This document shows positions 496 to 47,000 of a DNA stretch of 64,000 bases, piece by piece. The notes beneath the pieces were generated by a model. That model worked only from the letters and a program-made list of their open reading frames with translations, searched no databases and had not been told where the DNA came from. Position numbers and translations under genes: made by a program. The stretch is from positions 1,289,331 through 1,353,330 of the forward strand of contig MVDH01000003.1 in NCBI GenBank assembly GCA_003056245.1, read 5' to 3'. How positions within the stretch are numbered: the stretch's first letter is position 1; every line of letters starts with the position of its first letter. This stretch comes from Cellvibrio sp. 79. Lineage in GTDB: Bacteria; Pseudomonadota; Gammaproteobacteria; Pseudomonadales; Cellvibrionaceae.

Positions 496-642
496 CGGAA
501 AATCCTTCGCCCTTAATGTTCTGAGTATAGAAGATCATGCCTGATTTTCATCATATTTATTGCTTTAGGCGACACGTGACAGGCTTCCCTCTTTACCATT
601 TATTAAAGTGAGACGGTGCCCATGTTAGGTTTTTACTTCAAT

Positions 643-654
643 ATGGGACGACGC
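643..654 (+). promoter_or_regulatory. Copy A of the GTGGGACGACAC element (degenerate)
   Basis: ATGGGACGACGC differs from the three downstream copies at two positions. It lies 183 nt before the GH81 start, in the divergent region between the left-edge gene and GH81. The rest of 496-836 shows a possible stem (CAGTTGC at 654-660 with GCAACTG at 680-686) and no other gene. Function as an operator or activator site is inferred from recurrence. Confidence 0.5.
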
Positions 655-836
655 AGTTGCGGAGCTAGTAGAAACTGATGCAACTGGGGTAACCCTCGCA
701 GGCGCCATTCAACTGACGCTGGCGGCCTAAATCCGGCACAGGCGGTGCCAGGGAGAGAATAACAATAATCCGGGCCCTATTTCGCGAAAACTCCTGGTTC
801 GAATAACCAATAACAACATTTATCTGGGTTCCTATC

Positions 837-3800
837 ATGAAAAGATTCAACAGAGTCCTGCTGTTGCTGGGCGCATTGGGTTTTGCCCATGCGGGTCAGG
901 CAGCGATCATCAATTACGGTGCCGGTAATATCAGCGATACCATCAACACTGCGGGCTGGAAATGTACCGTGGACCACGGCAACTGGATCCATAACGCCGG
1001 CGTGGTAAAACCGGGCGTGAGCAGTTGCAGCCCGATTGGCGCGCCCACCCCGATTTATCCCCAGGAAGTTTCGCCAGCCAGCACCAAGCCGACCATGACG
1101 CACCGCTGGTGGGGTTCGATCCCGTTTGTGGGTGAGATGAAAGTAGGGGCCAGCACCGATGCCGGTTATATCACTCCTGATCCGATTACCGCCCGCGTCA
1201 CTGACCGCGGCGTGCGCCTGTTAGGTATTCCCGGCGGCTTGCGCACCGGGACTAACGATTCAATTTATGCGATTCCCGATCCGTTCAGCGAAGTATTTGA
1301 TGGTATCGCGATTGGCAGCTCGTCCTACTCCAACCTTGACGCCTTCCTGAAAGATTACAGCGATGGCTCGGTTACCGTGCAGTGGAAAAGTGGTTCAACT
1401 GCCGTCATGGAAGCGACCTTTGTCCATGGTTCGCCCTATGTTTATTTCACCGCGCTGCAAGGAAACCTGGTTGTTCGTACCAAGTCTGCCGACGGCGGTG
1501 AAAAAGGAATTTTCTATCAAAGTGGCAATAATTTAGGTGTGTGGACTGACGTGGCGGGCAACCGTAACGCGTTCCTGATCACCGGTCACGATGCGACTAC
1601 TTTTAGCGGTGTGAACAGCAATAGTATCGGCGTGAACAACGGTACCAAACGTATGACCGTCACCTGGTTGCCACAACTGACCGGTACCCCATCCACCGCG
1701 ATGATCACCGCGTTTGCCCAGTATGCGACCCAGCAAGTGGACAAGGTGAATATCAACTACAGCGTGGATCGCAACACTAATAAAGTTACCATCACCCACC
1801 AGTACCAATTCAATGGTGCGAACGTGACTACCATGGCGGGCTTGTTGCCGCTGCACTGGAAAAACTCTACCCAGGGTGTGACCAGCTACAAAGTGCGTTC
1901 AGCGCGCGGCGTAACCAAATTTGCGACCACCAGCAGCTACAGCTACACCATTCCTTATGTGGGGGTGTTGCCTTACTTCCCGGAAAATATTGGCGATTAC
2001 AATGCGACCCAATTGCGCGCACTGGTAACCGAGTTTGTTAACCAGGGTACTGCCAAGTGGAACACGGCTGGCGATACTTACTGGGCGGGTAAAAACTACG
2101 GCAAAGTGGCGGAACTGGCGGCGATTGCCCGCTCAATCGGCATGACTACCGAAGCCAACCAGATGATCGCCTGGCTGAAAGCCGAGTTGCAGGATTGGTT
2201 CCGCGCTAACACCACCGGTGCGTTGGATACCACCAAATACTTCGTGTACGACAACAACTGGAACACTTTGCTGGGGTTCGATGAATCTTTCGGGGCCCAA
2301 CAACAGCTGAACGACCATCACTTCCACTACGGCTATTTCGTGCGCGCTGCGGCGGAAGTCTGCCGCGTGGATGCAAGCTGGTGTGGATCTGCCCAATACG
2401 GCCCGATGGTTGAATTGCTGATCCGCGATTACGCCGCTGGCCGCAATGACAGCCAATTCCCGTACTTGCGTAACTTCGACCCGGCTTACGGTTTCTCCTG
2501 GGCATCGGGCCACGCCAACTTCGCGCTGGGCAACAACAACGAATCGACCTCGGAAGCAGCGAATGCTTACGGTGCAATCGTTCTGTACGGCATGATCACT
2601 GGCAATAATGATCTGGTGAATCGCGGTATGTACCTGCACGCGTCATCCACGGCGACTTACTGGGAATACTGGAACAACATTGACCGTTTCAAAGGCCTGG
2701 GTGGCGATTACGATAACTTCTCTTCCAGCTATACCAAACCAACGACCTCCATTATCTGGGGCAACGGCCATGTGTTCTCGACCTGGTTCTCCGGTGCTTA
2801 TGCGCACATCCTTGGTATCCAGGGTTTGCCGCTGAGCCCGCTGGTATTGCACATCGGCCAGCATGCGGATTATCTGAACAACTATGTCGCATTGGGCTTG
2901 AGTGAATCATCCAACGGTAAACCTTCGGGCCTGCCGAATGGCCAATGGCGCGATGTATGGTGGAATATCTGGTCCATGACCAATGGGCAGGCGGCCGTGG
3001 ACGATATGCTCGCTTACGGTTTGAATAACCTGATTCCGGAAGAGGGCGAGACCAAAGCGCACACCTATCACTGGGTTTACACCCTGAAGCAATTGGGGCA
3101 TCTGGCGACAGGTACGGGCGCATTGACGGCTAACCACCCAGCGGCGGTTGCTTTCAACAAGAATGGCATCCTCACCTATATCGCCTACAACTTCAGCTGT
3201 TCAGCGATCAACGTTGCCTATTCCGATGGCACCAGCTTCTCTGTTCCTGCAAAAGGTTATGCGCTGAAACGCACTGGCCAATCGGTAGTATCCAGCGGTG
3301 CAGGTTGCTCCGGTGCCAGCAGCTCAGTGGCCAGTTCTACCCCGAGCAGCGTGACCAGTTCTTCCAAATCATCGGTAGCGAGTTCTTCGGTTGCCAGTTC
3401 AGCGGTAGTAACGCCTTATGGCCACACCGTATTGACCAGCAACAGTGTACGTTTCCATGCAAACAATGCAGCCTGGGCGGATATTCACTTCACCATCAAC
3501 GGTGGTGCGCAACAAAATATCCGTATGACCAATGCGAGCAATAACAACACCTATACCCTGACTAACATCCCGGCGGGCGCGACCGTACGTTACTTCTTCA
3601 CTATCGCCCAGGGCGCTGGGGCTGTTGATACGGCGTGGGTGCAATTCGGTTGCTGTTCTGGCGGTACCTCAAGTAGTACTCCGGCGAGCAGCAGCGTAGC
3701 GTCCAGCAGCTCGGTTCCGGCATTCTCGCAACTGGTCCAGGCAGAAGCCTTCACCGCGATGAATGGCGTACAGACTGAAGCTACGACCGATACCAATGGC

Positions 3801-4103
3801 GGCCAGAATGTTGCCTATATCGATTCGGGTGACTGGATGGCTTACGCCAATATCACCATTCCGGCAACTGGCAGCTATCGCATCGAATACCGCGTTGCCA
3901 GCCCATCGGGTTCACTGCTCTCCGCCGACCTTAATGCCGGTGCTATCCAACTGGGTAATGTGACCATCCCGGCTACTGGCGGCTGGCAAAATTGGACCAC
4001 CATAAGCCACACCGTAACCCTTAATGCGGGTACGCATAGCTTTGGTGTGTTTGCCCAGCAGGCGGGCTGGAATTTCAACTGGTTCCGCATTACACGCCTG
4101 TAA
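837..4103 (+). CDS. Secreted GH81 endo-beta-1,3-glucanase with CBM56 and CBM6
   Basis: Endo-acting enzyme that would cleave beta-1,3-glucan such as laminarin or curdlan outside the cell. A signal peptide (~1-22, cut near AGQA) precedes a GH81 catalytic region of ~750 residues. It shows the family's LNDHHFHYGYF segment near residue 490 and the ESTSEAANAY motif at 569-578, which carries the catalytic glutamates. Serine-rich linker 1 (~824-857) leads to a domain resembling CBM56 (~860-940), a beta-1,3-glucan-binding module; linker 2 (~942-962) leads to a C-terminal CBM6-like domain (QAEAFTAMNGVQ, then DSGDWMAYANI). At 1088 residues it is a typical multimodular Cellvibrio-style enzyme. It opens the glucan locus and ends at a strong terminator. 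The CBM56 call is less certain than GH81 and CBM6. Confidence 0.93.
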   Translation: MKRFNRVLLLLGALGFAHAGQAAIINYGAGNISDTINTAGWKCTVDHGNWIHNAGVVKPGVSSCSPIGAPTPIYPQEVSPASTKPTMTHRWWGSIPFVGEMKVGASTDAGYITPDPITARVTDRGVRLLGIPGGLRTGTNDSIYAIPDPFSEVFDGIAIGSSSYSNLDAFLKDYSDGSVTVQWKSGSTAVMEATFVHGSPYVYFTALQGNLVVRTKSADGGEKGIFYQSGNNLGVWTDVAGNRNAFLITGHDATTFSGVNSNSIGVNNGTKRMTVTWLPQLTGTPSTAMITAFAQYATQQVDKVNINYSVDRNTNKVTITHQYQFNGANVTTMAGLLPLHWKNSTQGVTSYKVRSARGVTKFATTSSYSYTIPYVGVLPYFPENIGDYNATQLRALVTEFVNQGTAKWNTAGDTYWAGKNYGKVAELAAIARSIGMTTEANQMIAWLKAELQDWFRANTTGALDTTKYFVYDNNWNTLLGFDESFGAQQQLNDHHFHYGYFVRAAAEVCRVDASWCGSAQYGPMVELLIRDYAAGRNDSQFPYLRNFDPAYGFSWASGHANFALGNNNESTSEAANAYGAIVLYGMITGNNDLVNRGMYLHASSTATYWEYWNNIDRFKGLGGDYDNFSSSYTKPTTSIIWGNGHVFSTWFSGAYAHILGIQGLPLSPLVLHIGQHADYLNNYVALGLSESSNGKPSGLPNGQWRDVWWNIWSMTNGQAAVDDMLAYGLNNLIPEEGETKAHTYHWVYTLKQLGHLATGTGALTANHPAAVAFNKNGILTYIAYNFSCSAINVAYSDGTSFSVPAKGYALKRTGQSVVSSGAGCSGASSSVASSTPSSVTSSSKSSVASSSVASSAVVTPYGHTVLTSNSVRFHANNAAWADIHFTINGGAQQNIRMTNASNNNTYTLTNIPAGATVRYFFTIAQGAGAVDTAWVQFGCCSGGTSSSTPASSSVASSSSVPAFSQLVQAEAFTAMNGVQTEATTDTNGGQNVAYIDSGDWMAYANITIPATGSYRIEYRVASPSGSLLSADLNAGAIQLGNVTIPATGGWQNWTTISHTVTLNAGTHSFGVFAQQAGWNFNWFRITRL

Positions 4104-4148
4104 GTTCGAATTCCCACAAAAAGTGGGATCGCTTGGCCCATCGAATTT

Positions 4149-4185
4149 GCCCCTGGTAGAACCCGTTCTGCCAGGGGCTTTTTTT
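4149..4185 (+). terminator. Intrinsic terminator after GH81
   Basis: GCCCCTGG and CCAGGGGC form an 8-bp stem, extended by TAGAAC/GTTCT, followed by seven T. It separates GH81 from the TonB receptor gene. Confidence 0.85.
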
Positions 4186-4331
4186 CAGTACCACTTTCGT
4201 AAGTGGGTAGAAACGACACAGCAAAAAATGTCGTTCTGAACATATCTAACTGATTGAAATTTAATGACTTTATGGGTTCCCACCGGGGGTAGTAAAAAGT
4301 GATATGCCTCAGGTTCGAGTAAATTTTGAAG

Positions 4332-4343
4332 GTGGGACGACAC
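4332..4343 (+). promoter_or_regulatory. Copy B of GTGGGACGACAC, upstream of the TonB receptor
   Basis: An exact copy lies 134 nt before the receptor start. A looser relative (AAGTGGG, five bases, ACGACACAGC) begins at 4201. The gap 4186-4476 holds no gene and is presumably the receptor promoter and leader. Confidence 0.55.
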
Positions 4344-4476
4344 TCTGGGCGCCAACTGGGATTATCAAATCGCTAGAAAAGCGGTCATGGCCCGGCACAA
4401 GGGTGACCTACGAGAGAAGCCGCTCAACAAAGCGGGCCAGAATAGATTCCATACCAATAAATAAATGGAGAACTCC

Positions 4477-7400
4477 ATGAGTAAGACACTAACCAACAAG
4501 CAATCAACCAGCTTTAGACGAACGCTTATTGCCACCGCCGTCGCTTCTACCATGTTGGGCGCAACCAGCTTTGCCATGGCACAAGATGAAAGCGTCGACG
4601 AAGTTGTCGTGACCGGTATCAAGGCCAGTCTGCAGCGCGCTATGGACATCAAACGCGACGCCAAAGGCGTGGTAGATGCCATCTCTGCGGAAGACATGGG
4701 TAAATTCCCGGATACCAACTTGGCAGAATCCCTGCAACGTATCAGCGGTGTTTCTATCGATCGCCAAAACGGCGAAGGCAGTAAAGTCACCGTGCGTGGC
4801 TTCGGTTCGGATTACAACCTGGTAACCTTGAATGGCCGTCAAATGCCAATCGCTGAAGTCGCGGATACCTATGCCGTATCAACCCGTTCTTTCGATTTCG
4901 GTAACCTGGCTTCTGAAGGCGTATCCGGTGTAGAAGTGTACAAAACCGGCCGCGCTGACCTGTTCACCGGTGGTATCGGCTCAACGATCAATATCCTGAC
5001 TCCTCGCCCGTTGGCATCACCAGGTCTTAAGGCCAGTGTGGGGGTGAAAGGTGTTTATGATGACTCAGCCAATAACCCGGATTTGACCCCGGAAATTTCC
5101 GGTATCTACAGCAATACTTTTGCCGATGACACCATCGGTGTGTCCCTGACCGGTAGCTTCCAGGAGCGTAAGAGCGGTTCCAGTAACGCCACTACGGGTG
5201 GTTGGTACGCATTCTCCGGTTCGGCGATTTGCTGTGACTGGTCCGGTGCACCCGGTGTGCCTGAACAAACCTGGGGCGGTTTGCCATCTAATGACCCGAA
5301 CGTAATCAATCGTCCGGAGGCGACTGACATTTTTGGTCGTCCGCAAAAAATCGAATATAGCTTCTCTGAAAACGAGCGCACCCGCACCAACGGCCAATTG
5401 GTTCTGCAATACAAACCTGTTGATTCGGTAACCACTACCCTGGATTACACCTACTCGGAACTGGAAAGCGAGCGCCGTTATAACAACCTGAGCGCCTGGT
5501 TTGACTGGGGCCGTACCCCGGCGTCAGCCCAATATCCATCGGTGTGGACTGATGGTCCAATTTCCTCTCCACTGTTGTACAACGAGTTGAGCGGCCTTGA
5601 AGATTTTGGTATGGGTGCAGGTTTAAGCTCATCCAAAACTGAAAATGACTCCGTTGGCCTGAATGTAGAGTGGCTGGTCACCGACAATCTGACATTGGAG
5701 TTTGATGGTCATAACTCGAAAGCGGAATCGTCACCCAATGGTGGCCGTTTCGGTTCCAGCACCAACTTTGGCGCGCGCGCCAGTATCCGTGCCGGTACGG
5801 TAGTGGATTTCAGCAAAGCATTCCCGGCGATGAAGATTCTTTATCCGGCGGGCGAAGTATTGACCTATGAAGATATGCAAGGCGCAGGTCACTCCTTCAG
5901 AAGCAGCTACATGATGACCGAGATTGACCAATACCAAATCAAAGGGACTTATGAGTTTGATGACAGCCTGATCAAGAGCATCGACTTCGGATTGGCAAGC
6001 ACCGAAATGGATTATCGCTCCGCATTCTCCAACGTGCAGAACGATACCTGGGGCGGAACCGGAACCGGTTATGCCGCTGATGTATGGGGTCCGCTAACCA
6101 CCATTAAAGATAAATTTGATCTGCCAGGCAGCAATGCCGCCTGGATGCAAAACGAATTCTTCATGTTTGACCTGGAAACGGCAGTAAACGCCGTGGGCCA
6201 GAAAACCGGCTCAGCTACACCGACCAAAGCATTCCCATGCGGCAAAGTGCTCTGCGCTGTTCCGTATGATCAATACGGTACTGCGCCAGCTACTGACCGC
6301 ACGACTAACGAAGAATCTGAAAGCGCCTATGTTCAGGTTCACCTCGCGCAGGATATCGCCTCTATGCCCGCTAACCTGATCGTTGGTGTGCGCTATGAAG
6401 CGACTGATGTTACTTCAACGGCGATGGTGCCAGTGTTCGTCGGTTCTCGTTGGGGTGGTGCGAACGAGATCGGGTTGGAAGCCAATGATGAAGTGACAGA
6501 AACCGCTTATAAAGGCGACTATGACTACGTGTTGCCGAACGTAGACTTCGATATTTCCCCGATTGATAGTCTGGTGGTGCGTGCTTCCTACAGTGAAACG
6601 ATTGCACGTCCAACATACGATCAGATCCAGGGCGGTTTGTTGATCAACGCCGGTGCTCGCCCGGCGGGTGCGACGGCTAACCGTGGTAACCCGAAACTGT
6701 TGCCGTACGAATCGAAGAATATCGATCTGTCAGCAGAGTGGTACTACGCTGACACCAGTTACGTATCCCTCGGTTACTTCCGCAAAGATGTTGATAACTT
6801 TATTGGCACCCAGACAGAAGTATCGACTATCGCGGGTGTACCTAACCCGGCTGACGGTCCTCGTTATGACGCCGCAATTGCAGCACTGGGACAAACGGCG
6901 TCCTGGGCAAGCATCATCGCGCACATGAAAGCCAACGGCCCTGCCAACGGTGTGAACGCCGCTGGCGATATCATTGGTATTCCGGGGGTTGATAGTGACT
7001 TCATGTTGACCACCACTTTCCCGGTTAACGAAAAATCAGCACAACTGGATGGATGGGAGTTTGCAGTTCAACACGTATTCGGCGAGAGCGGATTTGGCTT
7101 TAGCACTAATGCCACAGTGGTTGACGGCGATGTGGACTACAACAACCTGGCGTTGCCATCTGAAACCCAATTTGCGCTGATTGGTTTGAGCGATTCAGCG
7201 AACTTGATTGGTTTCTATGAGAAGTTCGGTTGGTCGGTGCGTCTGGCGTACAACTGGCGCGATGACTTCCTGTCCGGTACCCGTCATGACATCGGTGATG
7301 GTGGCGTTGCCAACAGTCCAATCTATGTTGAAGACTTTGGCCAATGGGACTTGAACGTGAGCTATGAAGTTAACGATCAACTCTCGGTATTCTTCGAAGG

Positions 7401-7512
7401 CATCAACCTGACTGATGAATACTCGCGCACCTATGGTCGCGAATGGCATCAAGTGATTAACGTCACCCAACTGGGGCCGCGTTACAACATTGGTGCCCGC
7501 TATACGTTCTAA
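4477..7512 (+). CDS. TonB-dependent outer-membrane receptor (carbohydrate type)
   Basis: Outer-membrane beta-barrel that would import glucan oligosaccharides using TonB energy. The start at 4477 has GGAG 8 nt upstream, better than the ATG 12 bases earlier. It has a signal peptide (cut after AMA, ~35), a TonB-box-like DEVVVTG at 41-47, a plug domain (DAISAEDMGKFPDTNLAESL, RISGVSIDRQ, VTVRGFG) and a long barrel ending in aromatic F (RYNIGARYTF). The plug wording and 1011-residue length fit the Xanthomonas/Caulobacter TonB receptor subfamily often found with SapC and halogenase genes, as here. The glucan substrate is inferred from the flanking GH81, GH3 and GH16. It has its own terminator, so it may be a single-gene transcript. 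Confidence 0.93.
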   Translation: MSKTLTNKQSTSFRRTLIATAVASTMLGATSFAMAQDESVDEVVVTGIKASLQRAMDIKRDAKGVVDAISAEDMGKFPDTNLAESLQRISGVSIDRQNGEGSKVTVRGFGSDYNLVTLNGRQMPIAEVADTYAVSTRSFDFGNLASEGVSGVEVYKTGRADLFTGGIGSTINILTPRPLASPGLKASVGVKGVYDDSANNPDLTPEISGIYSNTFADDTIGVSLTGSFQERKSGSSNATTGGWYAFSGSAICCDWSGAPGVPEQTWGGLPSNDPNVINRPEATDIFGRPQKIEYSFSENERTRTNGQLVLQYKPVDSVTTTLDYTYSELESERRYNNLSAWFDWGRTPASAQYPSVWTDGPISSPLLYNELSGLEDFGMGAGLSSSKTENDSVGLNVEWLVTDNLTLEFDGHNSKAESSPNGGRFGSSTNFGARASIRAGTVVDFSKAFPAMKILYPAGEVLTYEDMQGAGHSFRSSYMMTEIDQYQIKGTYEFDDSLIKSIDFGLASTEMDYRSAFSNVQNDTWGGTGTGYAADVWGPLTTIKDKFDLPGSNAAWMQNEFFMFDLETAVNAVGQKTGSATPTKAFPCGKVLCAVPYDQYGTAPATDRTTNEESESAYVQVHLAQDIASMPANLIVGVRYEATDVTSTAMVPVFVGSRWGGANEIGLEANDEVTETAYKGDYDYVLPNVDFDISPIDSLVVRASYSETIARPTYDQIQGGLLINAGARPAGATANRGNPKLLPYESKNIDLSAEWYYADTSYVSLGYFRKDVDNFIGTQTEVSTIAGVPNPADGPRYDAAIAALGQTASWASIIAHMKANGPANGVNAAGDIIGIPGVDSDFMLTTTFPVNEKSAQLDGWEFAVQHVFGESGFGFSTNATVVDGDVDYNNLALPSETQFALIGLSDSANLIGFYEKFGWSVRLAYNWRDDFLSGTRHDIGDGGVANSPIYVEDFGQWDLNVSYEVNDQLSVFFEGINLTDEYSRTYGREWHQVINVTQLGPRYNIGARYTF

Positions 7513-7536
7513 TGGTTAGCAAGTAATGAAGGAACG

Positions 7537-7566
7537 AAAAAGCCGCTGGTAACAGCGGCTTTTTTG
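7537..7566 (+). terminator. Intrinsic terminator after the TonB receptor
   Basis: AAAAAGCCGCTG, loop GTAA, CAGCGGCTTTTTT. A perfect stem with a T run. Confidence 0.9.
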
Positions 7567-7600
7567 CTCATGTTTTTTTGCCCGGACGCCGCTGTGGAAA

Positions 7601-8458
7601 ATGGACGTTGAAGAATATGTTTTTGTTAGAAAAATAAATTTTGAATTAGACAACACGATTACTAAAAAAGAACCAGAATTATATTTCCGTATGCACGAGG
7701 GTAGCGCAGTGGCCAGGTTTGAAACGCTTAGCAATGTTAATCACCAGAATCTTCACATTATCACCCGTCGCCATGCCGACTATGGCGATAACCTGATGCA
7801 CACCCTGACCTTTCCGCAGGAATTCAGAAGTATCCAGGCGCATTATCCGATTTTTTTTCGTAAACAAGCTGACACCGGAGTTTTTGAAGCGGTAGCGATG
7901 TTTGGCTTCAAACACGAGCAGAATTTATTTCTCGATGAAAACGGCTGGGATGCAAGCTACATCCCCTTAATGATTTTGCGCCAACCTTTTTTAATTGGCT
8001 TCCAGCAGCAACAGGAAAATGGCGAAATGGTAAAACGCCCTGTTGTGCAAGTGGATATGGAAAATCCGCGCATCAGTAACAGCGAAGGTGAACGTGTATT
8101 CATGGAGTTCGGTGGCTACACCGAGTATTTGAACAAAATGGTATCAATCCTGGATTACATCCATTACGGCCACGAAACCAGCCGCTTATTTATGCAAGCA
8201 TTGGTGGCGCTCAACCTGATTGAATCCCTTACGGTAGATATTGAACTTGAAGATGGCTCCAAAAACCAATTGATTGGTTATTACACGATTAATGAAGATG
8301 TATTAAATAAATTGCCACAGGAAGATTTGTTCCGTTTGCATCAGCATGGATTCCTTGAGCCTATTTACATGGTGCTGGCATCGCAGTCGCGCATCGCTGA
8401 AATGATTGCTCGCATCAATGCGCGCAATAAAAATGAACGACTTGCCGCGCAAAATTAA
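7601..8458 (+). CDS. SapC family protein
   Basis: Member of the SapC-like family (PF07277 type), a cytosolic protein of unknown biochemical role commonly encoded beside TonB receptors and halogenase-like genes. The conserved N-terminal region is visible (LSNVNHQNLHIITRRHADYG, then LTFPQEFRSIQAHYPIFF), as is the FMEFGGYTEYL segment. The frame is open from 7601, but family members usually begin just before the NVNHQNL region, so the true start may be the ATG at 7691 (residue 31). Neither start has a strong ribosome-binding site and the first 90 bases are AT-rich, so they could be promoter. It is followed 50 nt later by the halogenase gene, likely co-transcribed. The name recalls a Campylobacter S-layer export protein, but transport has not been shown for this family. 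Confidence 0.85.
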   Translation: MDVEEYVFVRKINFELDNTITKKEPELYFRMHEGSAVARFETLSNVNHQNLHIITRRHADYGDNLMHTLTFPQEFRSIQAHYPIFFRKQADTGVFEAVAMFGFKHEQNLFLDENGWDASYIPLMILRQPFLIGFQQQQENGEMVKRPVVQVDMENPRISNSEGERVFMEFGGYTEYLNKMVSILDYIHYGHETSRLFMQALVALNLIESLTVDIELEDGSKNQLIGYYTINEDVLNKLPQEDLFRLHQHGFLEPIYMVLASQSRIAEMIARINARNKNERLAAQN

Positions 8459-8508
8459 TCACAGAAAACCGTAAAACCCATTAAGTATTCGTAAAAGCCG
8501 GAGCGCTC

Positions 8509-10005
8509 ATGAAAACCAATAACATTAAAAAAGTAGTGATTGCCGGCGGCGGTACCTCCGGCTGGATGACCGCTGCCGCCATCACTAAATTGTTGGGGAA
8601 AAATCTTGACGTTACTTTGGTCGAATCCGATGAGATAGGTACCGTTGGTGTTGGAGAAGCGACCATCCCGACGCTTTTAACCTTTCATAAAATGCTGGCA
8701 ATCAATGAGCAGGATTTTTTATCGGCAGTGGGCGGTACTTTCAAGTTAGGTATTTCATTTGAAAATTGGTTGAATATCGGTGAGAAATATATTCACTCCT
8801 TTGGCAATGCAGGCACCGATTGCTGGGCGTGTGGTTTCCAGCATTTCTGGTTGCGTGGCATGCAGGAAGGTAAAGCACAGGATTATGCGCGTTATTCTCT
8901 GGAAACCCAGGCATCACTTGCCGACCGGTTTGCCCACCTGCCTAATAATAAAATGAATTACGCCTATCATTTTGATGCAAGCCTCTACGCAAAATTTCTG
9001 CGCGGTATTGCAGAAGAATATGGTATCAAACGCGTAGAAGGAAAAATCAATAGCGTGCAATTGAATGATGACTCGGGATTTATTGAATCCATCACGCTCG
9101 AATCGGGTCGGGTAATTGAGGGCGATTTGTTTATTGATTGCACCGGTTTTCGCGCGCTGTTAATTGAAGGCGCATTGCATACCGGTTTTGAAGATTGGTC
9201 ACATTATTTGCCGTGCGATTCCGCCGTCGCTGTACAAACTTACAAAGTAGCACCACCGGTTCCCTACACTCGCGCTATTGCGCATCCATCGGGTTGGCAA
9301 TGGAAAATTGCGTTGCAGCACCGTGTGGGAAATGGTCTGGTATATTGCAGTCGTTATCTCAGCGATGATGCAGCAAAAAAATTGTTGCTGGAAAATGTAG
9401 AAGGCGAAACGTTATTTGAGCCGAGAGTTATTAAATATCGCCCCGGGCAACGCCGTAAATACTGGAATAAAAATTGTATTTCGGTCGGTTTATCCAGCGG
9501 CTTTATTGAGCCACTGGAATCCACCAGTATTCATCTCATCCAACGCGCAGTGGTGCGCTTGCTACAAAATTTCCCGCAAGATGAAATCGTGCAAAAAGAT
9601 GCGGATGAATTTAATAAACAAATGACGGCGGAAATCATCAATATTCGCGATTTTATTATCCTTCACTACAACGCTACCCAGCGCACTGACAGTCCGTTCT
9701 GGCGCTATTGCAAAGATATGCCCATTCCCGACTCATTAAAGCACCGCATCGATTTGTTCCGTGAAACCGGGCGTGTATTTTTTGCTGCGTTTGAATTATT
9801 CGGAGAAAACTCCTGGGTGCAAGTGATGATGGGGCAGGGTATCGTGCCCAAACAATATCATCCGATAGTGGATATGATGAGTGATAAGGAAATGGATGTG
9901 TTTTTAAATGGCATCACCAGCAATGTGGATAATCTGGTGCGGCAAATGCCCAGCCAGGAGGAATATTTGAAACACTATTGCCCGCAAAGAAATATCGACA
10001 TGTAG
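8509..10005 (+). CDS. Flavin-dependent tryptophan-halogenase-family protein 1
   Basis: FAD-binding protein of the tryptophan halogenase family (498 aa). The FAD GxGxxG is at 12-18 (AGGGTSGW), the GVGEATIP motif at 47-54, a lysine at 79 (GGTFKLG) corresponds to the catalytic lysine of PrnA, WQWKIAL replaces the usual WxWxIP, and EPLESTS (334-340) holds the Glu-Ser pair found near the active site. GGAG precedes the ATG. Paralogues in carbohydrate TonB loci are widespread, but their substrate is unknown; free tryptophan is not an obvious one here. It follows the SapC gene with a 50-nt gap and ends at a strong terminator. Actual halogenation is uncertain because the WxWxIP motif is altered. Confidence 0.87.
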   Translation: MKTNNIKKVVIAGGGTSGWMTAAAITKLLGKNLDVTLVESDEIGTVGVGEATIPTLLTFHKMLAINEQDFLSAVGGTFKLGISFENWLNIGEKYIHSFGNAGTDCWACGFQHFWLRGMQEGKAQDYARYSLETQASLADRFAHLPNNKMNYAYHFDASLYAKFLRGIAEEYGIKRVEGKINSVQLNDDSGFIESITLESGRVIEGDLFIDCTGFRALLIEGALHTGFEDWSHYLPCDSAVAVQTYKVAPPVPYTRAIAHPSGWQWKIALQHRVGNGLVYCSRYLSDDAAKKLLLENVEGETLFEPRVIKYRPGQRRKYWNKNCISVGLSSGFIEPLESTSIHLIQRAVVRLLQNFPQDEIVQKDADEFNKQMTAEIINIRDFIILHYNATQRTDSPFWRYCKDMPIPDSLKHRIDLFRETGRVFFAAFELFGENSWVQVMMGQGIVPKQYHPIVDMMSDKEMDVFLNGITSNVDNLVRQMPSQEEYLKHYCPQRNIDM

Positions 10006-10026
10006 CACTTAATAATAAGTGAGCGC

Positions 10027-10058
10027 AAAAAACCGGACAACTATGTCCGGTTTTTTTT
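10027..10058 (+). terminator. Intrinsic terminator after halogenase 1
   Basis: AAAAAACCGGACA, loop ACTA, TGTCCGGTTTTTTTT. Strong stem and T run. Confidence 0.9.
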
Positions 10059-10196
10059 CATCTCACTGTTTAAGGATTGTTGCAGGGGAACTTTAACAAT
10101 AAGGTTCTGATGGCCATAATTATCAGGTTTTATTCGAACGAAGCCGCTATTTGTGATGATTTTCCGTGTCAACGCGCCCCAGGTTACGTAGATGTT

Positions 10197-10216
10197 AAAA
10201 GTGGGACGACACTTTT
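10197..10216 (+). promoter_or_regulatory. Copy C of the shared element, with full dyad symmetry
   Basis: Here the core GTGGGACGACAC (10201-10212) is flanked so that AAAAGTG, six bases, CACTTTT form a perfect 7-bp inverted repeat, as expected for a dimeric regulator site. It lies ~100 nt before the next gene. The remainder of 10059-10313 shows no convincing gene; the open frame 10077-10277 overlaps this site and looks spurious. Confidence 0.55.
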
Positions 10217-10313
10217 TAAATTCACTACGGATAATCAGGTACCACTAACAAGTGCCTGCTTATGGACACTGCATTAAAAATGATGCGTTCTCGTAAAAGG
10301 AATAAATATAAGT

Positions 10314-11009
10314 ATGATATTACGAAAAATAGTTTTAATCTCCGCAGCCTTTTTCTCTGGCATGCTGGCTACTTATTACTTCGCTGGAAAACAGCGGGCC
10401 GCTGAAGAAATGCCGTTTATTTCTGTTTCCGATTTTAAAAATTTACAGCAACGTAATCAGGATTTGGAAAAAGAAAACCAACAATTAAAAAATAAATTGG
10501 CATTTAAAACGTTTGGTGAAAATAGAGTTGTTGCACAAAGCAACGTGGAATCGAAAAGAGAAGAAAACATAAAATCTGCACCGTCCTCGGTACCGCCACA
10601 ACACATTAACTTGCAAGAGTATGAGCGGGCGAAAAAATTTTCTGACTGGATAACACAAACAATAAAAAATTCCGGCGATATCAGCCGCGACGCCGCCATC
10701 GGTTTTTTATCAGAGCCGATTGATACCCAATGGGCAGGCCAACAAGAAACCAGCTTGCGTACCACTTTTTCACAGTATGCAGGGTTGGGGCATTTTGCAT
10801 TGAAAGATGTGCAATGTCGAACCAGCCTTTGTCAGGTTTCCTTCGCTATAAATTCCGCACAGGATATTGAATCAATCACGAATGAAACGCGTAACGCATT
10901 GGAAACAATGTCACCGCACGTCGCTATTATTTCGGCTCCGGACACTGATAAATCGGTAACACATTTGTATGTGTCCCTGGAGGAAAGTGGATTTGCTTTT
11001 ATTCCCTGA
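10314..11009 (+). CDS. Membrane-anchored coiled-coil protein of unknown function
   Basis: A 231-residue protein that I do not recognise. One N-terminal hydrophobic segment (~5-25, IVLISAAFFSGMLATYYFAG) would anchor it in the inner membrane with the rest in the periplasm. A charged heptad-like stretch follows (QQRNQDLEKENQQLKNKLAF, ~43-62), suggesting a short coiled coil. The C-terminal half is compact with a Cys pair (VQCRTSLCQVSF), which could form a disulphide in the periplasm. It lies between two halogenase-family genes, and the shared GTGGGACGACAC element is 100 nt upstream, so it probably belongs to the glucan regulon. Function is not inferable from sequence alone. Confidence 0.75.
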   Translation: MILRKIVLISAAFFSGMLATYYFAGKQRAAEEMPFISVSDFKNLQQRNQDLEKENQQLKNKLAFKTFGENRVVAQSNVESKREENIKSAPSSVPPQHINLQEYERAKKFSDWITQTIKNSGDISRDAAIGFLSEPIDTQWAGQQETSLRTTFSQYAGLGHFALKDVQCRTSLCQVSFAINSAQDIESITNETRNALETMSPHVAIISAPDTDKSVTHLYVSLEESGFAFIP

Positions 11010-11137
11010 TAAAAGCAAAACACCCACGGGATTGGGTGCGCCAGGTATCTGGCATGGAACTGGTGCGACTGCACCATTGGTTGGCAATGTGGAATATTGC
11101 TGACCAAAGGAAAATAATGTTTTCAATAGGATTTTTT

Positions 11138-11605
11138 ATGAAATTAATAACAAAACTGTCAACTGCAATAGCGTTTGGTCTCGTGTCTTTATCGGCAAGT
11201 GTATTTGCCCAATCAGGTACACCGGTAACCTGTGTGTGGACTAGTGGTGGTGCCAGCGGTGTGTCTTACCGTTTGTGTCGCGATGGTTCAGCGACAGGTC
11301 CCGTTGCTGCATCGGAAGTCACTAACCTGTCTACCAATACCTGTAATCTCGCGGCATCGACTGGGTATTCGGTGACGGGGTCGTGCGGCACTGCCAACGT
11401 TTATAAAATAATCGTTCCACCAGCGTGCCCGAAAAATGGTGTGGTGTATCCGCAATTGATTGAAGTGGGTTATGGCAAGCCGCCATTCCCGACCGCCGCT
11501 GTACAGGCATTCTGTGGTGATCCGGCAATCTGTAGCTTTACCAGCGAAACTGTTTATAGCCATATGTATGGAGCAACCTTGCGCACAACCTGTCGCAATA
11601 AATAA
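11138..11605 (+). CDS. Small secreted cysteine-containing protein, unknown
   Basis: The start at 11138 is preferred over 11036 and 11117 because AGGA lies ~8 nt before it and the protein then begins with a clear signal peptide (MKLITKLSTAIAFGLVSLSA, cut near VFAQ). The mature part is ~130 residues with about eight cysteines spaced through it (TCVW, RLCRDG, NTCNL, GSCG, PACPKN, AFCGDPAIC, TTCRNK), suggesting a disulphide-stabilised periplasmic or secreted fold. I do not recognise the family. It sits between the coiled-coil protein and halogenase 2 and is followed by a perfect palindromic terminator. A role in binding or envelope function for the locus is possible but unproven. Confidence 0.7.
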   Translation: MKLITKLSTAIAFGLVSLSASVFAQSGTPVTCVWTSGGASGVSYRLCRDGSATGPVAASEVTNLSTNTCNLAASTGYSVTGSCGTANVYKIIVPPACPKNGVVYPQLIEVGYGKPPFPTAAVQAFCGDPAICSFTSETVYSHMYGATLRTTCRNK

Positions 11606-11624
11606 TTGCCCGGATGCAGCAAAG

Positions 11625-11654
11625 AAAAGCCACAAAGAATTCTTTGTGGCTTTT
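11625..11654 (+). terminator. Perfect palindromic terminator
   Basis: AAAAGCCACAAAGAA paired exactly with TTCTTTGTGGCTTTT, followed by more T. A 15-bp arm palindrome able to act in both directions. Confidence 0.88.
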
Positions 11655-11778
11655 TATTTTTGCGTCGATTTTGTCGGGATTGATGTTGCTATCAATTTAG
11701 CTATCAATGATGCGACTGGTTGGTTGTTGGGGCATAATGTGGCCACTACACAGCACAACCGGTATAAGGTCAAACAAC

Positions 11779-13338
11779 ATGAATAATCCCATTAAAAAAA
11801 TAATGATTGTCGGCGGTGGTTCAGCCGGTTGGTTAACTGCTGGCTTGATTGCGGCAGAGCATCTGGTCGATAAAATGCGCGGTATTGAATTGGTACTCAT
11901 TGAATCACCGGATGTACCCATCATCGGTGTGGGTGAAGGTACCTGGCCTTCAATGCGCACTACCTTGAAAAAAATCGGTGTGTCCGAAACGGATTTTTTT
12001 CGCGAATGCGATGCCAGCTTCAAACAAGGTTCAAAATTTATCGATTGGGTAAAACCCGGGGGCGGCGCCTATTACCATCCGTTCAACCTTCCTGATGGCG
12101 GCAATGAATTTAATTTGGCCGAGCAGTGGTTACCCTTTCGCGATACGGTGACGTTTGCCGATGCAGTTTGCCCCATCAGCCATATTTCAGAGCGCAACCT
12201 TGCCCCCAAATTAATTACCACACCGGAATTCGTCGGCAACAGCAATTATGGTTACCATCTGGACGCAGGAAAATTTTCTGTATTCCTGAAACAACATTGC
12301 ATTGAAAAACTGGGTGTAACTTATATCCAGGACCACGTCGTTAAAATCAATTCTGCTGAAAATGGTGATATCGCCTCGCTAAGCACCAAAATGAACGGTG
12401 ATCTCAGTGCAGATTTGTTCATTGATTGCACCGGTTTTGCATCGCTATTGTTGGGCGAGCATTACCAGATTCCGCTTAAACAAGAGCATCGCGTATTGTT
12501 TAATGACAGTGCGCTGGCAGTGCAAATTCCTTATCCCGATGCCGATGCGCCCATCGCATCTTGTACGCTGTCTACGGCGCAAGATTGCGGTTGGATCTGG
12601 GATATCGGCCTGCCTACCCGCCGTGGTGTCGGCCATGTATTTTCCAGCGCGCACACCAGCGACGAACAGGTCCTGAAAAACTTGCAGGCTTATCTCGAAC
12701 CGGCGATTGGCAAAGCGGCGGCCGAAAAAATGATGCCGCGCAAACTGACATTCAATCCCGGCTATCGCCAGGAGCTGTGGCATAAAAACTGTGTGGGCGT
12801 GGGAATCTCTGCGGGTTTTATCGAGCCTCTGGAAGCAACAGCACTGGTGTTGATTGAGTTATCTGCACAAATGATTGCCGAACAATTGCCGGCCACACGG
12901 GGCGTTATGGATACCGTGGCCAAACGCTTTAACCGGAAGTTGTTTGATCACTGGCAGCGCATCATCGAATTCCTGAAATTGCACTACGTCATTAGTGAGC
13001 GTCGCGATACCGATTACTGGCGCGATCACCTGGATGAGTCCACCCAACCTGATGGGTTGCGCGAACTGTTGGAACTCTGGCGCCACCATGTGCCCTGGCG
13101 CAATGATATCCGCAGCGATGAAATGTTCCCCTGGGCGAGCTATCAATACATATTGTATGGCATGGGTTTTCAAACCAACGTGCCAGCAGTAGCAAAACGC
13201 GGTGCGGCGATGAATGCGGAAAACGCCGGGCGTATGTTCAGTGAAAATAGTAAGAAAACGAATGCACTGGTTAAAAACTTACCTACCAACCGGGCATTGT
13301 TAGTCAAGCTGCGCGAATACGGGTTCCAAAAAATATAG
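11779..13338 (+). CDS. Flavin-dependent tryptophan-halogenase-family protein 2
   Basis: A divergent paralogue of the gene at 8509. The start at 11779 is chosen because the FAD motif VGGGSAGW then falls at 11-18, as in the family, giving 519 aa; the upstream ATGs would add an unrelated tail. GVGEGTWP (~50-57), lysine 82 (ASFKQG) and WIWDIGL (variant of WxWxIP) are visible. The active-site segment is EPLEATA, so the serine that follows Glu in PrnA (and in the neighbour) is alanine at 353. This may mean altered or lost halogenation. The protein is cytosolic and flavin-dependent, with unknown substrate. It has its own upstream region after a terminator and its own downstream terminator, so it is likely monocistronic. 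Confidence 0.86.
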   Translation: MNNPIKKIMIVGGGSAGWLTAGLIAAEHLVDKMRGIELVLIESPDVPIIGVGEGTWPSMRTTLKKIGVSETDFFRECDASFKQGSKFIDWVKPGGGAYYHPFNLPDGGNEFNLAEQWLPFRDTVTFADAVCPISHISERNLAPKLITTPEFVGNSNYGYHLDAGKFSVFLKQHCIEKLGVTYIQDHVVKINSAENGDIASLSTKMNGDLSADLFIDCTGFASLLLGEHYQIPLKQEHRVLFNDSALAVQIPYPDADAPIASCTLSTAQDCGWIWDIGLPTRRGVGHVFSSAHTSDEQVLKNLQAYLEPAIGKAAAEKMMPRKLTFNPGYRQELWHKNCVGVGISAGFIEPLEATALVLIELSAQMIAEQLPATRGVMDTVAKRFNRKLFDHWQRIIEFLKLHYVISERRDTDYWRDHLDESTQPDGLRELLELWRHHVPWRNDIRSDEMFPWASYQYILYGMGFQTNVPAVAKRGAAMNAENAGRMFSENSKKTNALVKNLPTNRALLVKLREYGFQKI

Positions 13339-13385
13339 TTCCAAAAAAAGTTCGCTAAATAGCGTTCGCTGCTGTTTTATTCCCC

Positions 13386-13410
13386 AAAAGCCCGCTACGG
13401 CGGGCTTTTT
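13386..13410 (+). terminator. Intrinsic terminator after halogenase 2
   Basis: AAAAGCCCG(C) and CGGGCTTTTT form a GC-rich stem with a short loop and T run. Confidence 0.88.
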
Positions 13411-13523
13411 CCTTCCGGTTCTCCGCTGTCGTTCGATTAAGCCTGCCCTGATATTTATCAGAACCCGTGCGAATAAATTCCCTGCACAAAAGTGAACAGC
13501 CCCACGTTCCACCGGCGATAAAA

Positions 13524-13535
13524 GTGGGACGACAC
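13524..13535 (+). promoter_or_regulatory. Copy D of GTGGGACGACAC, upstream of GH3
   Basis: An exact copy, preceded by AAAA as in copy C. It is 414 nt before the GH3 start, much farther than the other copies, with a hairpin and a terminator in between. Confidence 0.55.
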
Positions 13536-13609
13536 CCTTTTGAATCCGATGCCACTATGAACTCTGTCAGCCTGATCGTGTGCCCGTGGTTGAGCCGCGG
13601 CCAGGTGTG

Positions 13610-13948: not shown

Positions 13949-16504
13949 ATGCCCACTCTTTATAAGACTGCGATGTATAGGCCTGCAGTGCTGACCTTAT
14001 GCAGTCTGGCAGTGATCGCGGCGCTGGCTGGCTGCGGTAAAAAATCCGCAGAAACCAGCGCAACGGAAACTCCTGCCCCGGCGACTGTATCGCTTTGGCC
14101 GAAGCTAGACAGTGCGGTAAAAAAAGACCCCGCTGTGGAAGCAAAAATTACTGAGCTATTGGGCAAATTGTCAGTCGAGCAAAAAGTGGGACAGCTGATC
14201 CAGCCGGAATTGCGCCATGTCACCCCGGCGGATGTAATTGAGTACGGCGTGGGTTCGGTATTGAATGGCGGCGGTTCATTTCCCGCTGAAAACAAACACG
14301 CAAAAGTTGAAGACTGGCTGGCATTGGCCGATGGTTTTTATAACGCTTCCATGAGTACTGATAATGGTCGCGTGGCCATCCCGATTTTTTGGGGAACCGA
14401 TGCCGTCCACGGTCACAATAATATTATTGGTGCAACCCTGTTCCCGCACAACATCGGCCTGGGCGCAACCCGCAATCCTGAATTGATTAAACAAATTGGC
14501 GCGGCAACGGCTGCAGAAATTGCAGTGACCGGTATCGATTGGAGTTTTGCACCTACACTCGCCGTGGTGCGCGATGATCGCTGGGGCCGCACCTACGAAT
14601 CCTATTCAGAAGATCCGGCAGTCGTAAAATCCTACGGCGGAAAAATGGTGGAAGGTCTGCAAGGTGTTGTGGGTAAAGATTTTCTTAGCGAACAACATGT
14701 AATTGCCACTGCCAAACACTTCCTCGCTGACGGCGGTACGCAAGGCGGACAAGATCGCGGCGATGCACCAATAGATGAAGCCGAATTAGTAAAAATCCAC
14801 AACGCCGGTTATGAAACTGCGCTCGCCGCCGGTGCGCAAACCGTGATGGCATCGTTCAGCAGTTGGCAGGGCGTGAAGATGCACGGCAATAAATATTTGC
14901 TCACCGATCAATTAAAAAACCAGATGGGTTTTGACGGTTTGGTGGTGGGCGATTGGAATGGCCATGCCTTTGTTTCCGGTTGCACACCGGTAAGTTGTGC
15001 GCAAGCCATTAACGCCGGCCTGGATATTTTTATGGCCCCGGAAGGCAATTGGAAAGAGTTGTATCACAACACCGTTGCTCAAGTAAAAAGCGGCGAGATT
15101 TCGCAAGCGCGCCTGGATGATGCGGTCGCGCGTATTTTGCGTGTGAAAATTCGTGCGGGCTTATTTGAAAAAGGCGCGCCATCAACACGTGAACTCGCCG
15201 GCAAACGCGAAGTAATTGGTTCTGCAGAGCATCGCGCGGTTGCTCGCCAAGCGGTGCGTGAATCCATCGTGTTGCTAAAAAATAATGCGCAAACCTTACC
15301 GGTAAAAGCCAACAGCAAAATCCTGGTGGCGGGTGATGGTGCGGATAATATCGGCAAACAATCGGGCGGTTGGAGTATTACCTGGCAGGGCACTGGTAAC
15401 ACCAACGCAGATTTCCCCGGCGGTTCATCGATTTATCAAGGAATTGCCGATGCAGCAAAAGCAGCCGGCGGTTCAACGGAATTGAGTGTCGATGGAAATT
15501 ATAAAACCAAACCGGATGTTGCTTTCGTGGTGTTCGGTGAAGATCCTTACGCAGAAATGCAAGGTGATATCGGCAGTTTGATTTACAAAAATGAAACCAA
15601 TCTCGCGCTGCTGAAAAAGTTAAAAGCTGACGGCATCAAAGTAATTTCATTATTTATTACCGGCCGCCCGCTTTGGGCAAATAATTTTATCAACGCGTCA
15701 GACGCATTTGCGGTGATTTGGTTGCCGGGTTCTGAAGGCGCTGGTATCGCCGATGTTGTTCTTGCAAAAGCAGATGGTTCAATTAATTACGATGTAAAAG
15801 GTAAATTGCCATTTTCCTGGCCATCGTCACCGGTGCAGTCGCCACTCAATCACGGCGATGCCGATTACAAACCGCAATTCGCATTTGATTTTGGTTTGAC
15901 TTATGTCGACAAAATCGAAACACCGGTATTGGATGAAACAGCAGCGCAACTCGCTGCCGCACAAGCACCGGATACCGTCCCGGTGTTCAACCAGCGCGTA
16001 ATGAATCCGTGGACCCTGGTATTGCTGGATCATGTGAATAACATGGCTCCGGTGACTACCAGCAGCGGTGAATTAGGCGCGCTAAAAGTATCGTCACAAG
16101 ATAAACACGTGCAGGAAGACACGCGCCGTTTGCAATTCAATGGTTCCGCAAAAGCAACTGCAACATTTGGTTCTACGTCGCGTTCTGATTTCAGCAATTA
16201 CGCGGAAAAAGGCGCATTGGTATTTGATGTGAAAGTAAATACCAAACCGGATGCCGCAGTGAATGTAGGCATGTATTGCGGCAGTGATTGCCAGGGGGAA
16301 ATTGCAATTGCGGAACAATTAAATGCGGCAACGGTTGGCGAATGGAACAGTGTCAGCATCGCGCTGGATTGTTTTGCGAAAAAGCGCGTGAAACTGGATA
16401 TGGTACTTGCACCTTTTATGATTAGCACCGCGGGCTCTCTGGATATATCGCTCTACAATGTACGTATCGAAAAAAATGCTACTGCACCCGCCTGTAGCGA
16501 ATAA
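13949..16504 (+). CDS. GH3 exo-beta-glucosidase/glucanase lipoprotein (ExoP-like)
   Basis: Removes glucose from non-reducing ends of beta-glucan fragments. GAGG precedes the ATG. The lipobox AALAGC places the lipid-bearing cysteine at 29, so the enzyme is membrane-anchored. The GH3 N-terminal barrel begins around 65 (KLSVEQKVGQLIQPELRHV); the nucleophile is Asp335 in VVGDWNGH; the C-terminal GH3 sandwich spans ~440-640. A last region (~670-850) resembles the galactose-binding-like Exop_C domain of the marine beta-glucanase ExoP, and similar modules occur in the adjacent GH16. The 851-residue length fits ExoP-like GH3. It would work after the GH81 and GH16 endo-enzymes. The exact specificity (1,3, 1,4 or mixed) is not readable from sequence. 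Confidence 0.92.
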   Translation: MPTLYKTAMYRPAVLTLCSLAVIAALAGCGKKSAETSATETPAPATVSLWPKLDSAVKKDPAVEAKITELLGKLSVEQKVGQLIQPELRHVTPADVIEYGVGSVLNGGGSFPAENKHAKVEDWLALADGFYNASMSTDNGRVAIPIFWGTDAVHGHNNIIGATLFPHNIGLGATRNPELIKQIGAATAAEIAVTGIDWSFAPTLAVVRDDRWGRTYESYSEDPAVVKSYGGKMVEGLQGVVGKDFLSEQHVIATAKHFLADGGTQGGQDRGDAPIDEAELVKIHNAGYETALAAGAQTVMASFSSWQGVKMHGNKYLLTDQLKNQMGFDGLVVGDWNGHAFVSGCTPVSCAQAINAGLDIFMAPEGNWKELYHNTVAQVKSGEISQARLDDAVARILRVKIRAGLFEKGAPSTRELAGKREVIGSAEHRAVARQAVRESIVLLKNNAQTLPVKANSKILVAGDGADNIGKQSGGWSITWQGTGNTNADFPGGSSIYQGIADAAKAAGGSTELSVDGNYKTKPDVAFVVFGEDPYAEMQGDIGSLIYKNETNLALLKKLKADGIKVISLFITGRPLWANNFINASDAFAVIWLPGSEGAGIADVVLAKADGSINYDVKGKLPFSWPSSPVQSPLNHGDADYKPQFAFDFGLTYVDKIETPVLDETAAQLAAAQAPDTVPVFNQRVMNPWTLVLLDHVNNMAPVTTSSGELGALKVSSQDKHVQEDTRRLQFNGSAKATATFGSTSRSDFSNYAEKGALVFDVKVNTKPDAAVNVGMYCGSDCQGEIAIAEQLNAATVGEWNSVSIALDCFAKKRVKLDMVLAPFMISTAGSLDISLYNVRIEKNATAPACSE

Positions 16505-21640: not shown

Positions 21641-21650
21641 TTCTGCAGGT

Positions 21651-21675
21651 AAGGCCGGTTATGCCGGCCTTTTTT
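21651..21675 (+). terminator. Terminator between the two large lipoprotein genes
   Basis: AAGGCCGG, loop TTATG, CCGGCCTTTTTT. The next ATG is only 31 nt downstream, so the second lipoprotein depends on read-through or on a promoter lying within the first gene's end. Confidence 0.85.
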
Positions 21676-21706
21676 AAAATTAATATCAACGGAAGCATCA
21701 AGAAAA

Positions 21707-46773: not shown

Positions 46774-46821
46774 AAACAGCCTTAAAAATGTAACAAGGGG
46801 AAAAGAGAAAGGAAAATAAGA

Positions 46822-46994: not shown

Positions 46995-47000
46995 GGCGCC

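Follow-up and report, generated by a model that had tools for sequence, protein, structure and literature searches.

A putative operator for a membrane-bound AraC-type regulator of beta-1,3-glucan use in Cellvibrio sp. 79

Which regulator, if any, is served by a 12-bp sequence that recurs upstream of four genes in a beta-glucan locus of Cellvibrio sp. 79? The locus lies in a 64,000-nt stretch of contig MVDH01000003.1 (positions 1,289,331 to 1,353,330; the window) of the 5.7-Mb genome and consists of a TonB-dependent receptor gene clustered with glycoside hydrolase (GH) genes, an arrangement of the polysaccharide utilisation type that is kept in many relatives. A preliminary description of the window, made from its letters, had proposed a regulon-specific operator, possibly for a membrane AraC protein encoded at 26437. 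The results presented here support this proposal. We consider that the four elements are activator sites of the AraC/XylS type, belonging to a membrane-bound one-component regulator of beta-1,3-glucan use (probability about 0.82).

A conserved operator upstream of four genes

A scan of the window recovered all the copies listed in the preliminary description, i.e. the exact copies of GTGGGACGACAC at 4332-4343, 10201-10212 and 13524-13535 and the two-mismatch copy ATGGGACGACGC at 643-654 (all on the + strand), and likewise placed a partial match reported near 39,426 inside a coding region (39427-39438, − strand, three mismatches, within the open reading frame (ORF) 38682-40301). The remaining 20 of the 24 window matches with up to three mismatches each carry three, and at this level the 12-mer is not enriched in the window (24 seen, 34.8 expected). 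The exact 12-mer has three copies in the whole genome, all in the window and within 9.2 kb, and the genome-wide matches of the pattern AANNTGGGACGAC are exactly the four sites, all in gene direction (its reversed control has six matches). Random spread over the genome, which the preliminary description had named as contrary evidence, was not seen, since exact 12-mers and AANNTGGGACGAC matches occur only at the window sites. When one mismatch was allowed, the genome gave 7 matches against 13 for the control, so that one-mismatch copies elsewhere are mostly due to chance. Repetition alone is weak evidence because 22 different 12-mers are present at least three times in the window (40 shuffles: mean 3.5, maximum 12). 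It is conservation in relatives, not repetition, that marks the element as real.

In the 21 Cellvibrio genomes searched for the exact 12-mer, our genome included, 28 copies were found in 17 genomes, and 25 of them precede genes fitting beta-glucan use (TonB receptor 11, GH3 8, F5/8-type-C 4, GH16 1, coiled-coil protein 1). In relatives, the exact 12-mer stands before the TonB receptor gene in ten loci and before GH3 in seven. The three copies off this pattern lie within longer coding frames (L016, L031) or in a 99-aa ORF (L011). Alignment on the 12-mer revealed a conserved AAAAGTGAnnnGCCCCATGTT, followed by 12-13 variable bases and AAAGTGGGACGACAC. In 23 of the 28 copies, all chosen on the 12-mer alone, a left arm CCANNTT (at least four of its five letters) lies 12-14 bp off; among random positions of these loci the share is 5.3%. 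Left arm and a full distal AAANTG together are present in 19 copies, compared with 0.085% of random positions. A profile built from 21 sites matched 31 of 116 relatives at an E-value of 0.01, at which about one false genome is expected. A core pattern that requires both arms and CGAC but leaves open the two letters separating TGG from CGAC matched 56 times in the 21 Cellvibrio genomes and its reversed control 5 times; in 51 other genomes of the family the counts were 31 and 14. Of these 31 matches, the 11 genomes that encode an orthologue of the AraC protein account for 24 (controls 2) and the remaining 40 genomes for 7 (controls 12). Beyond the family, 44 genomes from the rest of the order gave no match (control 4).

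The locus is conserved in relatives, with GH81, TonB receptor, SapC, halogenase-family, GH3 and GH16 genes and the AraC gene on the opposite strand. There the sites precede GH3 and TonB receptor genes; a position before GH16 or GH81 is less frequent. The spacer letters diverge while the element stays before orthologous genes in many species. Conservation in orthologous promoters, the absence of which would have counted against the operator proposal, is therefore present, and the four sites almost certainly represent a real conserved operator.

The 12-mer itself proved to cover no more than the promoter side of an operator that measures about 37-50 bp and has the layout (AAAGTGA-N3-)GCCCCATGTT-N12/13-AAAGTGGGACGACNC. 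Its core is an imperfect inverted repeat, GCCCCATGTT-N12/13-AAAGTGGGAC, with GAC added on the promoter side; the conserved symmetry is CCANNTT-N12/13-AANNTGG. On the far side the core is often extended by AAAGTGA, which repeats the AAAGTG of the right arm 32-35 bp upstream. The arrangement was examined in 96 contexts, i.e. distinct sequences from the fetched loci, near-copies from related genomes included, that were chosen on the right arm and at least four of the five left-arm letters. A full distal AAANTG precedes the right arm in 49 of them, at 32 bp in 25, 33 bp in 18, 34 bp in 3 and 35 bp in 3. A pure direct repeat was rejected as the core, since the other 47 contexts lack the distal element; the core that defines all 96 is the inverted repeat. 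The dyad AAAAGTG-N6-CACTTTT of the third site (copy C), pointed out in the preliminary description, is present in that copy, but its 3' half is conserved neither in the other copies nor in relatives, and it was rejected as the symmetry of the operator. An inverted distal half-site in front of F5/8-type-C genes was also dropped: the sites L004, L019 and L020 fit the layout CCANNTT...TGGGACGAC with TT or AT where AA stands. In two further F5/8-type-C sites (L014, L026), only three of the five left-arm letters were matched.

A TATAAT-like hexamer with at least four matches peaks 18 bases after CGAC (28 of the 96 contexts), which corresponds to a 17-bp spacer from NCGACN and therefore puts CGAC at the −35 position. 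The operator is thus predicted to overlap the −35, with the −10 about 17 bp further on, as in a class II activator site of the AraC/XylS type.

The membrane AraC protein and its paralogues

Sixteen ORFs of at least 150 aa are present in 837-30830. Fifteen were scanned, the sixteenth being antisense inside the GH81 gene, and the 386-aa AraC protein was the only one of the fifteen with a regulator domain. Its C-terminus contains the double helix-turn-helix (HTH) that characterises the AraC/XylS family (Pfam HTH_18, E 6.1e-19, residues 296-377), and Pfam recognised only two HTH models in the protein and no kinase or receiver domain. The best NCBIfam matches, MelR, AryK and AraC, were all far under the cut-offs. 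Eight overlapping hydrophobic stretches occupy residues 11-242 of the N-terminal part, for which neither Pfam nor NCBIfam gave a family. An AlphaFold model based on seven close sequences consists of seven long helices followed by an HTH bundle, with low confidence (mean pLDDT 56). Among the six loci found, the nearest named relative by AraC protein is C. mixtus J3-8 (94% identical).

Orthologues of the protein (E 1e-124 or better) were detected in 31 of the 116 genomes. The operator class of the window, read as GTCGTCCCA on the other strand, was found in 29 of these 31 genomes but in only 1 of the 85 without an orthologue; outside the genus, the figures were 11 of 11 and 1 of 84. The corresponding Fisher values do not represent independent tests because the genomes are related. 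For this analysis AraC proteins were taken from among the matches listed and only the orthologue label was used. Moreover, 49 of the 87 core-pattern matches have a membrane AraC gene, from among the matches listed, no more than 25 kb away, where 3.8 were expected by chance. In three non-Cellvibrio loci, a second membrane AraC gene (37-38% identical) was observed inside the locus of the orthologue (L119:4355-5497, L125:10779-11912, L127:8670-9818), and either of the two proteins could be the operator user there.

The strongest argument that the AraC protein is the binder comes from a paralogue, P1. The 21 Cellvibrio genomes contain 2 to 15 membrane AraC matches each (E 1e-20 or better). P1 is 41-43% identical to the window protein, has a copy in our genome (C9:853569) and adjoins GH16 genes (L139). 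Promoters in most of its ten loci carry GCACCA(G/T)TTT-N13-AAACTGGTGCGACG followed about 17 bp on by a −10-like hexamer, i.e. the layout of the window operator with different letters (TGGTGCGAC). The strict P1 operator was found in six of the ten loci L139-L148, and degenerate forms were seen in the alignment of the other four. Where a distal AAANTG is present, its fourth base is G at 41 of 43 window-class sites and C at all five P1-class sites; the other 10 of 15 P1-class sites lack this element. Other P1-class sites precede a TonB receptor gene and a GH26-family gene.

The operator letters follow the AraC tree, which was built from 85 membrane AraC proteins after matches of up to 300 aligned residues had been dropped. 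In the window clade (29 proteins on the tree), the letters were GA for 26 and GG for 2, with no operator for 1; in the P1 clade (14 proteins), they were TG for 9 and CG for 1, with none for 4. Four rows with an ambiguous operator were left unclassed and L215 was set to none, whereas six GA labels were assigned by hand: L100, L116, L133, L135 and L137, in which the operator is on another stretch or contig, and L111, which has the variant TGAGACGAC. In the P2-type clade an operator was near 0 of 14 proteins, and the core pattern found none in the ten loci L149-L158; the recognition helix of this type reads SPS, SQS or SLS, and that of the window protein SKS. No operator was found in L201-L203 or in 15 of the 20 paralogue regions L209-L228, where L215 has one doubtful match with four of the five left-arm letters. 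Five further AraC genes (29-49% identical) have a divergent site 120-215 bp off (L189, L190, L192, L193, L196). Three of them are weaker cases because the next gene is transposase-like (L189, L190) or because no 150-aa ORF lies within 650 bp (L192). In genomes G056 and G029 (L189:5622, L190:9755), the operator-like site TGGCACGAC is followed after 67 bases by an IS630-like transposase ORF, and the divergent membrane AraC gene lies about 120 bp away from it.

Several observations weigh against the assignment of the operators to the AraC protein. Related genomes may have inherited the locus as a whole, which could explain part of the co-occurrence. G012 encodes an AraC orthologue and has no site, in G018 the profile picked up just the variant TGAGACGAC, and in the extra genome G065 a class site stands beside an AraC paralogue. 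In G016, for which 7% contamination applies, the exact 12-mer precedes an F5/8-type-C gene without a close AraC orthologue. No core-pattern site was found before the AraC gene itself, and 38 of the 85 membrane AraC rows have no operator nearby, including the 4 of the P1 clade. As to geometry, a smaller maximum of the −10 signal occurs at 21 bases (19 of the 96 contexts), the distal element is absent from nearly half of the contexts and from copy C, and direct and inverted repeats coexist, which would fit more than one mode of binding.

It is unlikely, yet conceivable, that the AraC gene merely travels with the locus and that the operator, though real, is bound by another protein (a repressor, an extracytoplasmic function (ECF) sigma factor or an unlinked global factor). 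Linkage by itself names no binder, the position of CGAC within the promoter would also suit a repressor or sigma factor, and ORFs for a putative sigma factor and its partner, read from sequence without a family scan, are located near P1 in L139 and L142. However, no other regulator was detected among the 15 scanned ORFs, one layout with different letters accompanies different AraC clades, the listed P1 loci share with the window locus just the AraC and beta-glucanase genes, and divergent operators stand 120-215 bp from the five further AraC genes. Binding of the four operators by the AraC protein at 26437 is very probable.

Similarly, the combination of CGAC and a −10-like hexamer resembles a promoter, and conserved stretches occur further downstream in the TonB receptor and GH3 leaders, as would be expected if the element were a conserved core promoter or a transcribed leader (RNA) signal with no dedicated regulator. 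We regard this as very improbable: conserved letters at fixed spacing reach 35-40 bp upstream of the −35, which is further than a sigma-70 promoter extends; these letters also differ between AraC clades, and Rfam detected only 6S RNA in the window. Functionless copies arising by chance or from repeats would agree with the many recurring 12-mers and the lack of enrichment at three mismatches. This explanation is refuted by the conservation of the element before orthologous genes in many species with diverged spacers, and its near absence elsewhere in our genome and the excess of core-pattern matches in the genus leave it a negligible chance.

Target genes of the operator

The four operators, their candidate −10 hexamers and the genes of the locus are listed in Table 1.

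Table 1. Operators, candidate promoter elements and genes of the beta-glucan locus (positions in the window)
Feature	Position	Strand	Basis or remark
Operator A, before GH81	605..654	+	sequence, core-pattern match
Parts of operator A	distal AAAGTGA 605-611; left arm GCCCATGTT 618-626; right arm AATATGGGACGACGC 640-654		
GH81 with CBM56 and CBM6, target of A	837..4103	+	Pfam
Operator B, before TonB receptor	4296..4343	+	profile 58.8 bits, core pattern
Parts of operator B	distal AAAGTGA 4296-4302; left arm GCCTCAGGTT 4306-4315; right arm AAGGTGGGACGACAC 4329-4343		
Candidate −10 GATTAT, 18 bases after operator B CGAC	4360..4365	+	fits the peak in the 96 contexts
TonB-dependent receptor, target of B	4465..7512	+	Pfam; NCBIfam TIGR01782
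SapC protein	7601-8458	+	Pfam
Tryptophan-halogenase-family protein	8509-10005	+	Pfam
Operator C, before coiled-coil gene	10176..10212	+	profile 45.5 bits, core pattern
Parts of operator C	left arm GCCCCAGGTT 10176-10185; right arm AAAGTGGGACGACAC 10198-10212		distal AAAGTGA absent
Candidate −10 GATAAT, 19 bases after operator C CGAC	10230..10235	+	sequence
Region downstream of C	10314..13338	+	putative operon
231-aa and 189-aa proteins downstream of C		+	without Pfam match
Second tryptophan-halogenase-family protein, downstream of C	11707-13338	+	Pfam
Operator D, before GH3	13489..13535	+	profile 55.3 bits, core pattern
Parts of operator D	distal AAAGTGA 13489-13495; left arm GCCCCACGTT 13499-13508; right arm AAAGTGGGACGACAC 13521-13535		
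Candidate −10 CACTAT, 19 bases after operator D CGAC	13553..13558	+	sequence
GH3, target of D	13949-16504	+	Pfam
GH16, after GH3	16620-18893	+	Pfam
Membrane AraC protein, 386 aa	26437..27597	−	Pfam, hydrophobicity

Operator A scores low against the profile (9.0 bits, E 0.07) and shows no clear −10 at the usual distance. It is supported by five GH81 genes of relatives that are preceded by sites of the same class (L160, L161, L180, L185, L188). In G002, a gene whose product has an N-terminus similar to that of the coiled-coil protein is also preceded by a site (L181). Judging from the spacing, the SapC and halogenase-family genes (7601..10005) probably belong to the TonB receptor operon.

The sites of the preliminary description all precede genes of the locus. 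Unlinked members of the regulon were found as well. The site TTGTGGGACGACAG at C1:1846250 of our genome, with one mismatch to the 12-mer, was kept because four Cellvibrio genomes have the exact 12-mer before a similar F5/8-type-C gene. The gene behind this site (L200:10047-12860; G000:C1, about 1846546-1849359) encodes a 937-aa protein with F5/8-type-C, CBM56 (a beta-1,3-glucan-binding family) and di-haem oxidoreductase domains, possibly a redox protein aimed at beta-glucan. Class sites also precede F5/8-type-C-like genes in G070, G039 and G061, the likeness being taken from the N-terminal sequence, and an unlinked putative second GH81 gene, its identity read from the sequence without a family scan, in five relatives (L159, L169, L178, L184, L186).

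Further conserved stretches were observed in two leaders. In that of the TonB receptor gene, GCTAGAAAA (4372-4382) is identical in 11 of 11 contexts and lies just past the expected transcript start; it may be a small hairpin or a second protein site. In that of GH3, GTGCCCGTGGTTGAGCCGC (13580-13598), about 45 bases past the 12-mer, has at most one change in 6 of 8 GH3 contexts and may be part of a leader RNA or a second site. Two ORFs of 787 and 1550 aa are located between the GH16 and AraC genes (19277-26359). Their Pfam matches (DUF5640, Pectate_lyase_4) all stay below the cut-off, and their Ig-like or repeat matches are weak. The Rfam scan of the window gave nothing besides a 6S RNA gene at 46819-46995 on the − strand (RF00013, 98.3 bits).

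Proposed mechanism and comparison with known systems

According to the mechanism that we propose, beta-glucan fragments at the cytoplasmic membrane would elicit a response of a membrane-embedded AraC dimer, whose C-terminal HTH pair would bind the operator beside and over the −35 and recruit the sigma-70 RNA polymerase. The GH81 gene, the TonB receptor operon, the coiled-coil operon, GH3-GH16 and the unlinked CBM56/di-haem oxidoreductase gene would be switched on, and uptake and hydrolysis of beta-1,3-glucan would thus be induced together. Activation at the −35 is likely, while the chances that the ligand is sensed by the membrane part of the protein are about even. Some paralogous membrane AraC proteins would use the same layout with other letters for other beta-glucan genes.

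A wider reading, which we offer tentatively and at slightly less than even odds, is that a family of membrane AraC receptors in Cellvibrionaceae detects polysaccharide fragments at the inner membrane and acts on genes directly through one layout (distal AAASTG, left arm CCANNTT and a AASTGGNNCGAC-type right arm over the −35), in which S and NN form a recognition code of the paralogue: mostly G and GA for beta-1,3-glucan genes, C and TG for beta-glucan genes of the GH16/GH26 type. If this were true, regulons could be assigned from DNA alone. The operator already provides a sequence rule for locating unlinked beta-glucan genes such as the CBM56/di-haem oxidoreductase gene.

AraC and XylS operators lie next to and over the −35, and the direct-repeat spacing of AraC is 21 bp. 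The system described here resembles these activators in the C-terminal double HTH, in an operator next to and over the predicted −35 and in the repeated AAAGTG box upstream. It differs from them in the hydrophobic N-terminus, in which no soluble ligand-binding domain was recognised, and in the core, which is an inverted repeat, the direct repeats being 32-35 bp apart. Regulators of the ToxR/CadC type have a winged-helix DNA-binding domain and one membrane helix. Like them, the AraC protein is a membrane protein that is itself predicted to bind DNA, but its DNA-binding domain and topology are different.

Hybrid two-component systems, described for xylan use in C. japonicus and for Bacteroides in the available text of PMC10766802, share with the proposed system the sensing of oligosaccharides at the envelope, an AraC-type HTH and the control of polysaccharide genes. 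In contrast to them, the 386-aa protein is a one-component regulator with no kinase or receiver domain recognised by Pfam.

In 2008, membrane-bound AraC proteins encoded close to polysaccharide genes were described for the marine gammaproteobacterium Saccharophagus degradans 2-40, with many paralogues, some listed with 6-7 membrane segments, and were hypothesised to detect extracellular polysaccharides (PMC2386152, available text). The window protein is like this type in its position beside polysaccharide genes and in its many paralogues. Our literature search returned no description of this operator or of one for a membrane-bound AraC protein; the titles listed for the operator letters themselves all concerned other subjects. 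Compared with the Saccharophagus account, the available text of which names no DNA target (PMC2386152), the present analysis adds not only a candidate operator but also its regulon, the geometry of the promoters and, between two paralogues, a natural change of operator letters that would alter specificity. Since a candidate operator has been found, the 2008 sensing hypothesis becomes directly testable, which offers a concrete route to how membrane sugar sensors switch genes on.

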